Assembly: GCA_963921795.1 (NCBI GenBank)
Contig: OY997647.1
Coordinates: forward strand, 49,748,213-49,812,212
Length of the DNA stretch: 64,000 nt
Origin: Nannobrachium achirus
Lineage: Eukaryota > Chordata > Actinopteri > Myctophiformes > Myctophidae
Direction: 5' to 3'
Part shown: positions 23,459-62,230 of the stretch, piece after piece
Position numbering within the stretch: position 1 is the first letter of the stretch
Layout: the number at the start of each line of letters is the position of its first letter
Translations under genes and position numbers: made by a program
The notes under the pieces: model-generated
Databases searched by the model: none
Told to the model about the DNA's origin: nothing
The model's input: only the letters and a program-made list of their open reading frames with translations

Positions 23459-23509
23459 GGAGGCTGTTAAATCAAGGTGTAATTGGGTACATGAAGAAAG
23501 ACCAAACTG

Positions 23510-26500
23510 ATGGATGACCAGAAGGACAACCTGTCATCAGACCCAAAGGGGTTTGATTCCCTGTTCATCCAAGAAGAGGATGGAGCGCAGGCACACACCG
23601 TGCCGGTTGAAAGAGTAGAGTGCAACTCTACACAATCTGAACTTGCATTCACTGGGACACTCTTGAATCATTCTACCCAAATACGGCCATACTTAATGGA
23701 AATGGATGAATTACTGAAGAGCTGTGATGAGCTTGCAGGTGTTGCCTTGGGCCATGACTTCATGCCCTCGTACACAGACACTCACTCGAAACAAATCAAA
23801 GTGGAAGTCGTGAAGGACCGATATAGGGAGACTAGTGTATCTCCCCAACCGTATCTGTCTACTACCTACATTGACACACGTGTGGATAGGAATGAAACCG
23901 AGCATGTCCCAACGCAAACCCATCAACAGGACATGGGCTTCATCATGAACAGATACGGAGAGTCCAAAGGAGCTCCTTCTAAAACTCTGATGCCCCTCAC
24001 CTCAGCAGGTGCGGAACTAAGTGGCACCATGGTGGAGTACCAGACCCAGCTGATGGGCATGTTGGCCATGCTAGAGAACTGTATGGAAGAGGCTGGCATG
24101 GACTTGGATCCCCAAGAATGGGCTACAGACGCAAGCCAAGAATATGTACAAGTTATACAAGATCATAGTCATTGCAAAGCGCCATCACTAGAGCCAATGG
24201 AGGAGAGAGGAAGGACAGTGAGGATAGAGGCCCAGACAGCACCATCTCAGCCCTGGGTTAGCCACCCTGTGGATGCTATTACAAAGCAAGGATCAAGAGA
24301 AGAGGTGATGAGACTGGAAAAGTCAGACACTGAAACTGGTGTGAGTGTGGATTTTATGGTAGATCTGGGGACTTGTGAGCCACAGTTGAAAGGGTTGTCC
24401 CCTTCAATGAGCACCAACAATACAGGTAATGAATCAGGAAGGTTTGAAGAGGCACACACAAGATATGCTGGCAAAGAGACAAGCATAAGGACACACACAT
24501 CTAGAATGGATGTAGAGAACAGCGATGCATTGAAACCAGATACAGAGATGGAAGTGACTGGTCAGACTCAGAGCGCTTACATGGAGGAACTACAGGCACT
24601 GGGGGCTCAGGTGAACAAGTGCATTGAGGAGGTCCAGCACCTGGAGAAAAAGAGGGAAGAGCTGCTAACGGAGGTGCTAAGGCTGCGCGGGGAGGTGGAG
24701 GAGGAGAAGGAGAGCGAGGAGGGGGGACAGAATAGTGAGAGAAAAGTGGCAGAGCTGATGGCTGTGCTGAAGACGGAGGCCGAACAGAGCAGGGAGGAGA
24801 GCAAGAGGGAGGCGCAAAGCCTCAGGGAACAGAGGGCAGAGCAGGAGAGGAGGGTGTGGAGGGTCATGCTGGAGAGAGATGCCCTGCAGGAGGAGACCAG
24901 GAGGCTGAGGAGGAGGCTATTTGCTGTGGCCAGAGCCTGCGCTTACTGCCAGGCCACCAGGAACACACAGCAACGTGTGGTGGAGAGGTTAAAGACAGAG
25001 GAGGTAAGGAAGGCCGTGGAGCATTTCCTTTACAAAAGGTTTCTGCCTAGAGTCCACCTTCAGGAATGTAATTATTTTTGCTTAAATCACCCAATGACCA
25101 CTTATAATCAAACTCTATAATGCATTATGACAGTGATTATAGTACATTATACGATTTTTATAATTATGGCAATTATAATACATTGATGCAAAAAAAGGTC
25201 TGAGAGTCTAGCAATTATGAAATGGTATAATACTTGACCTTAGAATTCATCATAAAATGTTATTGTTATGTTAAGTTCTTAACTTCTTATAACTATAATT
25301 ATAGTATTATTATAGTGTTATGTATGTATTCATATTTACAACATAATCCACAGCAGCCATCTGCATTCTACAAATTACACATTCAAACTTGCATGCCTCT
25401 GAGAGGCCACTGGATCAGTTTTGGTGTTTCCGATCCTCCCTTAAAGGCATTTAGCCATCGTCAGTGTCGCCATAGCATATAGTATATCAGTGGTTCTCAA
25501 CATTTTCAGTCTGCGAACCCCCAAATAATCATATTTGAACTGGGGACCCCCCACCCTGACAAGCGCTTGGAATTGGAGTTGAGGAATTCAATTTAGTTTG
25601 ACTCGGTTACATAGACAAATATTGCATTGGCCTTAAGGCTTCAGAGCTTTTAGATAGTCTAATCTTTCTTATATACTGTAATTTGACAATTTGGCCAATG
25701 TTTGACCAGTTTTTATAGCATAGTTTGTTGATTAATTTGATGCATTGAGTAATGGTCTTTTAATTTTCTCTTTTTTGGGGCATTAAAAATATCTTAAAAG
25801 TCCTCAAATTGTCTCTTTGTTAGACCCCACGTCACCCCAGACCGACATGTTGAGAACCACTGGCGTATACAACTAGAATTCTTTATTCTTTAACTGGAAT
25901 ACACCATCCATGCCTGATCTGGGGATCAGTTTCTGGGTGGACTTCCTACCTTTATGCCGCTGCCACACTGGATATGCAAACAAATGCAACGTGTTCCTTC
26001 TCCCCATGCTTCCAGGAGCAGATGCAGTCCATAGTGCTCCAGCTCACAAAGGACTGTTCCCAGCTCCGCTCAGCTCACCAGCAGCAGCTCTCCAGCTTGG
26101 AGGCCCAGTTGAATGCCCAGCACTCCAGCCAAACTCCCAGTAACACTCAAGAGGAGCTGACTGAGTGCAGGAGGAACTCGTGTGGTGACATCGAGCAATA
26201 CCTGCAGGGCGAGCTGAAGGCACTTAAGGCTAGGTACCATCAAGTCATCCTGACAGGTTTAATGGATATCAACCCGAGAAGACATGCAATATATTATACA
26301 CATTACCAGCAATTACAATCATAATTTCTATGCTAGTTGTAATTTCTCTGTTGTCCAGTCCAGTAAAGTCATAACGTATATTTATCTTTTGCAGTAATGC
26401 GAGCCCTGTGTGTATGTATTTATTGTTAGGAATACTTGGTGCTTATGTTTCCTTGTTAAAAAAAAGAAGAAAAAACGCATTTGGTGACGTGTTTCTGAGT

Positions 26501-28827: not shown

Positions 28828-37779
<8,952 letters not shown>

Positions 37780-41661: not shown

Positions 41662-41667
41662 TTTATT
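41662..41667 (-). terminator. AATAAA overlapping the MADF-BESS stop codon
   Basis: On the minus strand the last codon and stop (CAA TAA) are part of CAATAAAA, so the canonical hexamer overlaps the stop. If used, it would give a 3' UTR of about 20 nt. Confidence 0.45.
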
Positions 41668-44600
41668 GTTCCTGCATTGAAGAAGCTTCATTCAGTGCCT
41701 CAGTCTCGTTCTCGTAAATCAGCTGGTATATTTTAAATTTCACGGCGGCCTTCCGTTTCGGCGAAAAGCTTTTGACCGTGGGGACTAGGCTCATGAAGAA
41801 CATTTCATCTGCGTCCCGGTCCGTCAGAGGCTGGGTCGAGGGGACGGTGGTCTCCTCTATCGCCCGCAAGAGGCCCGCTTGGAAAGGGGTCAACGATGGC
41901 TCGTGCGAGCGGTAGCGCCGCACTTTGGCAGGGACCGGAAGGTCCTCTTCCTCTTCGGTTTCCTCTTCCGAGACCTCATACAAGAACTCTGGCGGGGTCT
42001 CTGCGAGGTCTGAGGCTTCCGGGATGTCTGGGGTTTCTGGGGTGTAGGGCTGGGCAATAAGGGACAAAAATCAAACATTACATCAAGTTTTGACCAAGTT
42101 CCTTTATATCAATGTTTGCAAAACAGTGGGGCGGTGACCTTGTAGACCTGCTATTTTCACTAGTTTGTGTCCAGGGCAAATGTCTAATTGTGCTGAAAAG
42201 TTTGGGAACCTTTGCTTTGTATCAATGTTATGATGATATTGTGAGGATGGCTATTAGGGCTTTCACAATATGCCTATATAATTTCTAGGTGGGTAAAGGT
42301 AAATAATAGAACTAGAACAGTCAGGTAAGTTCAGAAAATGACAGTAGGCCTACTTAAAAACAGAAAAGACCACATTTATGCCATATCACAATATTATGAT
42401 CTTCAAAATCTATACATATATTATGTCGATTTTGTCATACCAGTCAATCGGCCACTATTTGACTTTTCACCTATGCAGCCAATGTTTTTTTTCTTCTTTT
42501 CTAAGTAAAAAAATAGCAGATCTATAAATTCGCAATGTCTTGTGAGCTTGTGTATTGAGACAAAATCTGAATAGGACTTAAAGGGGAATACCACTCATTT
42601 TCAACATTGAACTATGTCATTAATATACCTTAGAGTTGTTGTGTGGAAAAGAAAAAGGGAAACGACCAAGTATAAAAGATTTATGTATTTACATACCGTT
42701 AATATGACAAAAGGTGCTAATAAAGCAACAATGTAATTTAGGGGTGCTGTGGATGAAAACATTATTTACAGGGGTGACCTGAGACAGAATTCTTTGAGAT
42801 TGAATTTAACATTCATTTGTTCTACAAGATTAAGGATTTACTTTTCTGGGAAGTGGGCATGACCTTGGGGCAAGTAGAACATGACCTGTACTTGCCAGAT
42901 GGGCAATTGCCTCTGAGACCTTAGTGTCATCCCCTGAGATCGACATCGTTCCCAGCAGCCCTACCTGGGTGTGTGTGGTGTCTGGACTGGCCTCATTGGC
43001 TGGAGGAGGTAGGGTGCTGCTGGTGCCCTGGGCAGCTGGAGGTGGCACTAGGGTGCCCTGGGAAGCCGGAAGTGGTGCTAGGGTGACGTTGCCCTGCGTA
43101 GCCGAAGGTGGTGCTAGGATGATGGTGCCGTGGGAAGCCGGCGGTGGTGCTAGGGTGATGGTGGTGCCCTGGGTAGCCGGAGTTGGCGATCGGGTGCTGT
43201 TGCCCATGATGTGCAGCGCCATGAAGGACATGGATTGCGCGTGTCTCCACTCCTTCCCTGGCAACTGCACAGAGCCACTTCTGTTTTGGTCTTTATCTTT
43301 TTTTAATATCTTGCGGTAGGTGTCCACCAGGTTTTTCCATTTCGCCTGGGCCTTTTCAACTGGTAGGGAGAAACACAAGACAAAAATTAAAAAAACAAAA
43401 GGTTATGTGAGAAATGGTGTGTCATGTAAAGTACATGTCAACATGCACTGACATCATTATCAGACTTACATTTAACCTTTTAAACTTCATGTTTAAAATG
43501 ACCCAAAATGACTGGAAGTAGTACATGTTTTGTAGCCATTTCTAGCAATTGTAACAATGCTAGACCTTCACCAATAGTTTACGTTACTTAAGACCATTTT
43601 AAATAATTTGGACAGTTTTACATGGTGGTGCCCACACTTCCTGTTACCACATAACCATGCACAATAGAAATTCTAGACTGTGTCTTCATGTTCTGTGTAT
43701 AGAGGCATTATAGGGTGGGCTGTACTGTAAAGCCCATTTTCCACTGGCCCAACTCCACACCACTCCACACCACTCCACACCACACCGCCCACTTGTGCCA
43801 GGTTTTCCACTACAAGGACCTGGGTAGAGTGGTGTGAAAGTGGTACTAAACAGGGTACTAAAAAGTATCCACTCTAGAGTAGGTCTGAGCTAGGCCAAAC
43901 AGGGCCAAACACTTCATAATGACTGATCACTCACTGACTTTTCATTTAGACCACCAGGATATAGTTGTAATACATGATAATAGATTCTATTGTGTTATAA
44001 CCACTATTATAATCTATTATAGTGTATTTTAATTATCATAGTAATACATTAATACTGTATAATGCATTATAATCACAGTTATAATCCATTACAGTGCATT
44101 ATAATTAGGATAGTTGTAATACAAATGTATATTGTATTTTAGTCACAGTTAAAAGGGTCAATTTGTTTCTTACCGATAGGGGTACTTTTTTGTAATGGAA
44201 AATGTAGATATTTTTATGTGGTGTGGTGTAGTGTGGTGTGGTGTGGTGTGGTGTGGTGTGGTGTGGTGTGGTGCTAAAACTGCAGTCGAAAAGGGGCTTA
44301 AGTGTTGTTTGTGTTTTGAAATGAGACATGTTTCTACTTTCTAATATTGTGCGATAGCTATTATTGAACTCAGGGTTATGCCAAGGATTGGGAAGTTATA
44401 CTAGCTGGTGGTAGCTACCATATACAAAGATGCTGGTGGTAAGATTTGCATTGTCTAGCTTGCAAGCCATTTGCATTTTTATTTTTTGACAGCCTACTGG
44501 CACATGGAAATAAAACACATCTCGTTGATCTTTTTCAGGTGTTTTTGTATTCATAGCGCTGATATTTCCGCTACATCACTCACTCTGACTGGCAAGTAAA

Positions 44601-51803: not shown

Positions 51804-51809
51804 TTTATT
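51804..51809 (-). terminator. Poly(A) signal of the double-forkhead gene
   Basis: AATAAA on the minus strand, 52 bp beyond the stop, in the context TTTAATAAAAGCATTGAAAA. The same context follows the orphan exon at 62148-62153, supporting its age and function. Confidence 0.7.
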
Positions 51810-51860: not shown

Positions 51861-53836
51861 CTAAAATGATGAATTTACAAATTGGACATTTTGATCTAGA
51901 AGACGCGACTGACAGTAAGCAACTAGCCCCCGAATATCAGGGACCTGTGTGTCCACAGGTGAAGAGTCCCAATTTAACTTCCTCTTCGTTCCAAATGTTC
52001 TCTCTGTGGACGAATCAGGCTTCTGCTCCACTTTGACTGACACACTGGACTCATTCAGGATGGAGTCAATGGAGAAAGAACTGCTGAACTTCACCTCACA
52101 TCTACTGTTAACAGCTTTGCAGGCTGCATATTGAGGAGAGTGGAGAGTTGTGTTGTGATCTGGTGATGGTGGTGGTGTGGTCATCATCTCCTTTCTCACT
52201 AAGGTCAACTCAGGGAACCACCCCAGAATTCCTTCGAAGTGACGACGCACCATCTTTTCTGTTATTTTGCTGTGATCAAGTTTCCAGTAGTTACATGGGG
52301 ACTCTGGGCTAAATGAAATCTGAAAACGAAACAACACTACTGTTAGAATTTGACGATAGCATGGGTAAATAAATCGTATCTACGGTATTAAATAACAGTT
52401 GAAATGTTATTTTTCAAGGAATTTATATATTTACCTTGACAAAACATGCATGGGTTGACAAGCGGACTCTGATGTTGTTCTCAGAAGATTTTGTCCGGAC
52501 CAACCCAAATGATTCCAGTCTGTTCATCAACTGCAGGGGAAAAAAAGTGATATTACAATGAGGTCAACTTTGATTTGATAGCTAATGGGCAGTTCCCTAC
52601 ATGGGGGTCTATAGGCCGGGTACTACTCGCTGAGAGATTAAGGCAAGGACCACGGGGGATTTGTATCCCACACTGGCCTTGCAATGTTGGGAAATGGGAA
52701 ACTGAACGTAAATGTTTAGTGGTATTGTGTGTTTTCTTACCTGACAAAAGGTGAGCATCTTTTCTGGAGCGTCTTGTAAGATGAAGGCGATCATTGCCAA
52801 GTAGGATTTGCACTTGTTGAAGCGTTCTTGCTGAGTTGCACTGGATGGATCAGGACTCATGAACATCCTCTTGGTGGGTCTAGCAGCACCATCACCGGTG
52901 TGATCTGTGCTGCATCCTGTTGTATAACTGGAGTAACTGTAACCTGTACTTTGAACATGGTGTGTGTCCACAGGTGAAGAGTCCCAGGTGAACTTCATCT
53001 TCAGTCCAACGGTTCTCTCTGTGGACCAGTTAGACTTCTGCTCCACTTTGACTGACACACTGGACTCCTCTGACAGAGGAGAGGCTTTGCAGCACAGACC
53101 AGAAGGACTGTCTTTCTTCAGGATGGATTCAATGGAGAAAGAGCTGCTGAACATCTTCTCACATCTACTGTTAACATCTTTGCAGGCTGCAGGAGAGTGG
53201 AGAGTTGTGTAGTGGTCCGGTGGTGGTGTGGTAATCCTATCCTTTATCCCTATGGAGGTAAACTCAGGGAACCACTCCATAACTCCTTTGAGGTGACGAC
53301 ACGCCATCTTTTCTGTTATTTTACTGTGATCAAGTTTCCAGTTGTTCCATGGGTCCGCTGGGCTCATCTGAATCTGAAAATGAAAGCACAGTATAATGTC
53401 AGTATTTGACTAAGCTTAAGTTCAGATATTTACAATTTACATTTATGTATTAGTGAAATGCTTATTTGAGGAATTTATATTTACCTTGACAAAACATGTG
53501 CTGGATGACAAACAGACTCGGATGTTATTCTCAAAGGATCTTGTCCTCATGGACCCAAATGCTTCAAGTCTGCCCATCAACTGGAGAAAAAAATAAATCA
53601 AGTTACAAATTAGGTCTGAAATACTGTTAAGTTAACATAACATTTGATTATATAAACCGTTAGCAGCAGGATTGTCTGTTTCTTACCTGACTAAAGGTGA
53701 GCATCCTGTCCGGAGAGTCTTGTAGGACAAAGGCGATCATTGCCAAGTTGGTTTTGCACTTGTTGAAACTTTCTTGCTGAGTAGCAGTGGGTTGATCATT
53801 GTTGTAAGATAGGTGAGTTCCAATGTTTCCAGGCAT
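51861..53836 (-). CDS. Forkhead protein with two tandem forkhead domains
   Basis: Coding exons: 53687-53836, 53485-53580, 52741-53373, 52435-52530, 51861-52319; all junctions GT-AG, all phase 0; 477 residues. The domain plan is repeated twice. FH1 (about 23-120) starts FNKCKTNLAMIAFVLQDSPD, has helix-3 words NNIRVCLSSSTCFVK and ends NNWKLDHSKITEKM. FH2 (about 267-362) starts FNKCKSYLAMIAFILQDAPE, has NNIRVRLSTHACFVK and ends NYWKLDHSKITEKM. Each is followed by an eh1-like Groucho/TLE motif (SFSIESIL 160-167; SFSIDSIL 406-413), a SUMO-type VKVE (190-193; 420-423) and a WDSSPVDT block. Forkhead proteins are nuclear DNA-binding regulators; the eh1 motifs suggest repression. The subfamily is unclear, with some FoxH1-like wording. 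The 633-nt third exon encodes the end of unit 1 and the start of unit 2 without a stop, so two separate genes are unlikely. The start at 53836 follows a likely acceptor (exon from 53945); an in-frame ATG at 53965 lies in intron. Confidence 0.8.
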
Positions 53837-61685: not shown

Positions 61686-61976
61686 ATTCCAATGGAGATG
61701 GACAGTCTATGGAACTACTGGAAAGTTGATCATAGCAAAATAACACAAAAGATTTTGCGTCGTCACTTCAAAGGAATTCTGGGGTGGTTCACTGAATTGA
61801 CCTTAGTGCAAAAGCAGATGTTCACATCATCACCACGACCAGATCACTACACAACTCTCCACTCTCCTGAAGATGCAGCCTGCAAAGCTGTTAACAGTAG
61901 ATGTGAGGTGAAGTTCAGCAGCTCTTTCTCCATTGAATCCATCCTGAATTACAGACCTGTGACAGTTCCATACTGA
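61686..61976 (+). pseudogene. Orphan terminal forkhead exon
   Basis: The exon follows a clean acceptor (TTCTTTTCAG) and encodes 96 residues: LWNYWKVDHSKITQKILRRH, GILGWFTELTLVQ, the tail DHYTTLHSPEDAACKAVNSR and the eh1-like SFSIESIL, then a stop. It lacks the VKVE and WDSSPVDT blocks present in the double-forkhead gene. The intron upstream still begins with a donor-like CAAGGTAAATAT near 61572, but no sequence coding for the first two forkhead exons was found between 59463 and 61686; repeats occupy the space. It is most likely a partial copy left by inverted duplication. Whether it is transcribed is unknown. Confidence 0.75.
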
Positions 61977-62147
61977 AAAGGAGGATTCAAATCATCACTG
62001 GTGATGATGATGATTAATCAAGAGATTGTTCATGAGTAATGACGGAGTCCTCATCAGAATATCTAGCACTGTTCCTTATTTTTCACATTTGTCTGTATTT
62101 ATTATTAGCTGTGTTTTTATACACATTGAAGATGTTGAGTTTTTTTT

Positions 62148-62153
62148 AATAAA
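62148..62153 (+). terminator. Poly(A) signal after the orphan exon
   Basis: AATAAA in a context matching the signal of the double-forkhead gene. Confidence 0.6.
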
Positions 62154-62230
62154 AGCATTGAAAACTATTTTGTGTCCATTTTCTTAATTTTTTTCCCCAA
62201 ACTGTATTCAAAGAAAGGAGTATCAAATTC

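Follow-up and report, generated by a model that had tools for sequence, protein, structure and literature searches.

The question raised by this locus is whether one gene encodes two forkhead domains in a single chain, given that forkhead factors are, to our knowledge, generally held to possess a single DNA-binding domain. The literature searched, which covered few subscription journals, yielded no description of a protein with two forkheads; among what it did yield was a paper on yeast Fkh1. The locus was analysed within a 64,000-nucleotide stretch of Nannobrachium achirus DNA, hereafter the window. With a probability of roughly 0.7, we consider it to be a single protein-coding gene with two forkhead domains, which would have arisen through internal tandem duplication or unequal crossover and whose product would be a bivalent binder. 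A natural two-domain family would show how valency can be gained in a transcription factor through simple phase-0 exon duplication, and would make it possible to ask directly whether two linked forkheads recognise paired sites or divide the work between them.

Exon borders were tested on the minus strand, which yielded a frame of 477 residues from an ATG at 53836 to a TAG at 51861, with the only stop at its end. The five in-phase exons and single frame proposed in an earlier, sequence-only reading were thus borne out by the borders, which are phase 0 throughout, by GT..AG at all four introns, and by the single final stop. The third exon, which that reading took to bridge the two units, indeed does so without a stop, proceeding from the eh1-like word through the family tail to ..KRMFMSPDPSS and then to ATQQERF... 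By eye, the N-terminus encoded by exon 1 is similar to the starts of P0027 and P0036. A single mRNA is predicted to run across both units. A summary of the features is provided in Table 1, which also lists other features of the window.

Table 1. Positions of the gene, its broken relative and further features in the window.
Feature	Position	Strand	Description
Exon 1	53687..53836	-	Native start (MPGNIGTH..) and beginning of forkhead 1; 150 nt, phase 0
Exon 2	53485..53580	-	Middle of forkhead 1, helix NNIRVC at ~53529-53512; 96 nt
Exon 3 (fused)	52741..53373	-	End of forkhead 1, FSIESIL (53139-53119), family tail, beginning of forkhead 2; 633 nt, stop-free
Approximate junction	52839..52840	-	Tail homology stops at 52843-52834; exon-1 homology (ATQQE..) from 52839
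Intron 1 of unit 2	52531..52740	-	210 nt; unit 1 counterpart, 106 nt
Exon 4	52435..52530	-	Middle of forkhead 2, helix NNIRVR at ~52479-52462; 96 nt
Exon 5	51861..52319	-	End of forkhead 2, FSIDSIL (52076-52056), WDSSPVDT, lineage-specific tail, TAG; 459 nt
AATAAA poly(A) signal	51804..51809	-	Within a 3'UTR stretch common to the broken copy at 62140-62181
Third copy, last-exon relic	61686..61976	+	89.8% DNA identity to unit 2 over 244 nt
Third copy, 3'UTR/poly(A) relic	62140..62181	+	86% over 44 positions
Open frame	23495..25117	+	541 codons, no Pfam match
RBBP4-type histone-binding gene	34379..36297	-	Exons (CAF1C_H4-bd)
MADF and BESS domain pieces	41666..43402	-	Possibly transposon-derived

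When the whole protein was compared with the Pfam profile PF00250 (length, 88; cut-off, 27 bits), two stretches were matched (58.2 bits, E 9e-16), the best spanning residues 272-343. Each half alone gave one match, at residues 32-100 with 29.1 bits for unit 1 and with 32.4 bits for unit 2, so that each forkhead barely exceeds the cut-off; the halves covered profile positions 9-83 and 6-83, respectively, and both domains are near-complete. The presence of two forkhead domains, as claimed from the letters alone, was thereby confirmed. The same applies to the motif order, twice over, of forkhead, eh1, SUMO-type site (VKVE) and WDSSPVDT, which was recovered from the protein as forkhead 1, FSIESIL 161, VKVE 190 and WDSSPVDT 212, followed by forkhead 2, FSIDSIL 407, VKVE 420 and WDSSPVDT 442. 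The likeness between the two units is far beyond chance, with 73% DNA identity over 677 aligned positions (E 2e-119) and 133 identical residues among the 185 aligned in the protein. Identity reached 78% in exon 2 and 56% and 66% in the introns, and unit 2 is without 16 residues that unit 1 has. The extra stretch of the first intron of unit 2 had no clear match elsewhere within the window.

The window gene descends from a teleost family of FoxH1-like proteins, ~290 aa in length and with a single domain, recorded as si:rp71-45k5.2, si:ch211-239d6.2, zgc:113424 and 'forkhead box protein H1-like / Q1-like'. Common to both are an NNIRVC-type helix, the eh1-like word FSI[DE]S[IL]L, exon borders after CFxK, and a tail as far as ..KRM. 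Family members possess one forkhead and a conserved tail (..SYITYSVPTFTHDAL..), whereas the window gene has two forkheads and no native C-terminal tail, both units being devoid of it. The eh1-like word was present in 117 of the 120 single-domain relatives, as well as in all nine fused ORFs and all three last exons described below. The SUMO-type site and WDSSPVDT, put forward earlier as shared words, do occur in both units but are not family features: a [VILMFA]KxE site was found anywhere in 25/120 single-domain relatives, on which basis it was rejected as a conserved feature, and WDSSPVDT in 0/120. Among solved forkheads, FoxH1 was the best match, and the relative P0001, modelled alone, gave a winged helix (pLDDT blocks of 87-97 over residues 31-130) with FoxH1 nearest.

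The linker between the units can be aligned with the tails of relatives that have one domain as far as ..GDGAARPTKRMFMSPDPS at 52843 (best P0006, E 1.5e-6, 41 columns), past which it passes straight into ATQQERFNKCKSYLAMIAF, i.e., exon-1 sequence. The C-termini of the relatives read ..GGSTHHGLTANGAAKPIKRMHVCTEPSFPVYTR..SYITYSVPTFTHDALRFRL, and unit 1 is short of its final ~35 residues, which constitute the native end; past 52834, unit 1 showed no significant family-tail match, and neither did the tail region of unit 2. In place of the family tail, unit 2 bears QVPDIRGLVAYCQSRLL.. as its last 28 residues (51947-51861, minus strand), which match no family tail, yet recur in P0121-P0123 (..LVAYCKSRLLNLN), and whose source was not found elsewhere within the window. 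The notion that the whole gene plan is repeated, tails included, was accordingly abandoned, as neither unit is complete: unit 2 is without the native start, unit 1 without the native end. These two missing ends place the breakpoints inside exon 3 and exon 1.

Starting from a FoxH1-like gene with three exons and a single domain, internal tandem duplication or unequal crossover between a point in the tail of exon 3 and one in exon 1, upstream of the forkhead, would have given the exon order 1-2-[3/1 fused]-2-3, with the fused product in frame because all exon borders are phase 0. A single event of this kind would be a simpler account of the gene than duplication of a whole gene with subsequent loss of the stop. 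Of the tandem gene duplication and fusion that had been proposed, the in-frame exons, the junction within two native exons and nine further ORFs bearing this fused exon uphold duplication with fusion, and the whole-gene step gives way to the simpler internal breakpoints. Unequal crossover between neighbouring single-domain genes is an equal alternative to internal duplication, since tandem single-domain neighbours occur elsewhere. Two separate tandem genes, in which unit 1 would end and unit 2 would start from a separate promoter within the fused exon, would be in keeping with single-domain paralogues that often seem adjacent in other fish, to judge from consecutive locus tags (P0015/P0078, P0053/P0074, P0066/P0091 and P0093/P0116), with si:rp71-45k5.2 and zgc:113424, both named within one zebrafish interval in an excerpt of PMC2924321, and with the in-frame ATGs in RMFMSP. 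However, neither a stop nor 3'UTR nor intergenic DNA separates the units, unit 2 is without its native start region and unit 1 without its native tail end, and the open fused exon recurs in the nine ORFs. This arrangement is quite improbable and was rejected on junction anatomy in favour of a single fused gene.

Relatives of the fused gene were searched for using unit 2 as the query (87 matches) and a fused-exon profile (26 matches). The same fused exon is present in nine ENA ORFs, whose contigs do not exceed ~2 kb (P0124, P0125, P0126, P0127, P0129, P0130, P0136, P0141 and P0146). All nine run from a KR..(T/S/L)Q tail word into exon-1 sequence and then into QVR, equivalent to a GTRAG-type donor; exon 3 of the window follows this subfamily pattern too, with a ..KR..QQE join and a GTRAG donor. 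Pairwise identities of 56-86%, among the nine and with unit 1, indicate distinct loci or species. Three further ORFs, P0121-P0123, are last exons carrying the unusual tail of unit 2. The ten fused exons alone had no match in Pfam, because each contains only parts of two domains, and a scan of viral contigs for the pattern returned 74 matches with no relative among them. At the level of the DNA, the anatomy of the gene, its junction and the recurrence of the fused exon in nine further ORFs are established. A mis-joining of two gene copies during assembly is extremely improbable, as the units differ at 27% of the aligned DNA and nine independent ORFs on other contigs have the same junction.

The main tree was computed from the exon-3 core and comprised three window rows, 13 of the 14 ENA rows (P0151 was dropped) and 20 relatives with one domain. 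A single clade (100/99) contained all 16 rows from the window and ENA; within it, the fused exons grouped with P0142 and unit 1 (97/88). Unit 2 paired with P0121 (91/81), and the last exons were not one clade. In an earlier tree of whole ORFs with 29 relatives, in which columns past the junction may introduce bias, the last exons, including unit 2, were grouped with moderate support only (90/84). Units 1 and 2 as sisters, as would result from a recent local duplication, were rejected (AU p 0.0027). The grouping of the fused rows with unit 1, together with this rejection, shows that the duplication predates these loci; the event is a shared one that took place before this gene copy arose. Recurring as it does in nine related sequences, the double-forkhead join seems to be a heritable feature of the protein and not an isolated accident. 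Of note, exon 2 of P0121 runs into exon 3 without an intron, so this ORF may be either a spliced copy or a case of intron loss; P0123, P0130 and P0142 have an intron before exon 3.

The third copy lies on the opposite strand to the gene, and its exon is closest to the ENA last exon P0122, with which it paired in the exon-3 core tree (100/96). It is broken by an early stop, and its exons 1 and 2 were not found within the window. An out-of-frame relic, KRLFMSNDGVLIRISSTVPYFS, shows weak likeness to native tails, with E above 1.

Constraint on the coding sequence was assessed by comparing the two units, which gave a dN/dS of 0.66 with a bootstrap range of 0.41-1.09, and 54 of 1000 resamples were at or above 1. 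This ratio does not by itself reject neutrality. It replaced a first, more favourable estimate of 0.67 (0.45-0.995), which had included the non-homologous tail. Coding constraint on both units is suggestive only. In neutral simulations, both units stayed open in 31/5000 runs at 0.10 changes per site per lineage, in 2/5000 at 0.173 and in 1/5000 at 0.25; the per-lineage dS, taken as half of the cleaned dS, was 0.116, i.e., near the simulated 0.10. These results bear on whether the locus is decaying, such that the fused gene would no longer be functional and would be open by chance. We regard decay as unlikely: a dN/dS not significantly below 1, a fast-evolving family, the 16 residues missing from unit 2 and the clearly broken sister copy at 61686 speak for it, whereas both units are open with in-frame indels only, the splice sites and poly(A) signal are intact, neutral runs that keep both open are rare at 0.10 and at 0.173, and exons are more alike than introns. 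Nine further open fused exons also argue against decay, and are drawn from ORF collections that, like the sequence-only reading, favour open frames.

The recognition-helix pattern could be scored in 134 of 156 relatives (22/156 unscored). The base-contacting His of this helix is replaced by Val in both units and in 131 of the scored relatives; across the family, Val, Ile or Met stands in its place in 134/134, which is unusual. The helix Asn and Arg are kept in each unit. The residue after RV is Arg in unit 2 and P0121, and Cys in unit 1 and 133/134 scored relatives, a hint that the two forkheads may read DNA differently and the only one towards a division of labour. With the His missing, DNA binding by either unit is no more than putative. 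That the parent FoxH1-like family is without this residue yet widespread in teleosts is a question in itself.

Eh1-like words in other factors bind Groucho/TLE corepressors. The two-unit protein would accordingly be a bivalent DNA binder with two eh1-type corepressor motifs and might act as a repressor or competitor on paired or clustered forkhead-like sites. The Smad-interaction core of FoxH1 is the PPNK motif, and the PPN[KR] pattern was absent from the window protein and from all 120 relatives; because this core is absent, the protein would be uncoupled from Smads. Its most likely, putative role is that of a bivalent DNA-binding repressor without the Smad link of FoxH1. More tentatively, a fish lineage may possess a multigene tandem-forkhead family, some of whose members would have at least three forkheads, with different DNA preferences in the first and last units. 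The repeat module, consisting of a 96-nt exon and the fused exon, is phase 0 at both ends and could thus be copied without breaking the frame. Mere hints of such a family are the larger number of fused exons sampled (nine) than of clear last exons (three), the longest contig, 1435 nt, given by both P0127 and P0151, and the Cys-to-Arg helix change in unit 2 and P0121.

Two further known systems were compared with this gene. The recognition helix of FoxH1 has Asp at position i and His at i+4, according to the text available from PMC9701222, versus Asn and Val in both window units; neither Asp at i nor His at i+4 was found in any scored relative (0/134 each). In an excerpt of PMC10531137, Monopterus FoxH1 is described as a protein of 510 aa with FM1/2 and SID, compared with 285 aa for P0058, a FoxH1-like protein of the same species. 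The gene was not filed as FoxH1 proper, on the grounds of the helix residues and the missing PPNK core. The foxh1 genes of papers on the teleost ovary (PMC9403048, PMC10376888 and PMC11290265) could not be linked to the FoxH1-like single-domain family from the passages available, which gave no gene sequences. The forkheads of FoxP proteins (e.g., the FoxP3 entries 8srp and 9d22) dimerise by domain swapping or form ladders and thereby bring several forkheads together on one DNA as separate chains, whereas here the two domains belong to one chain. The likeness to FoxP would be one of function only.
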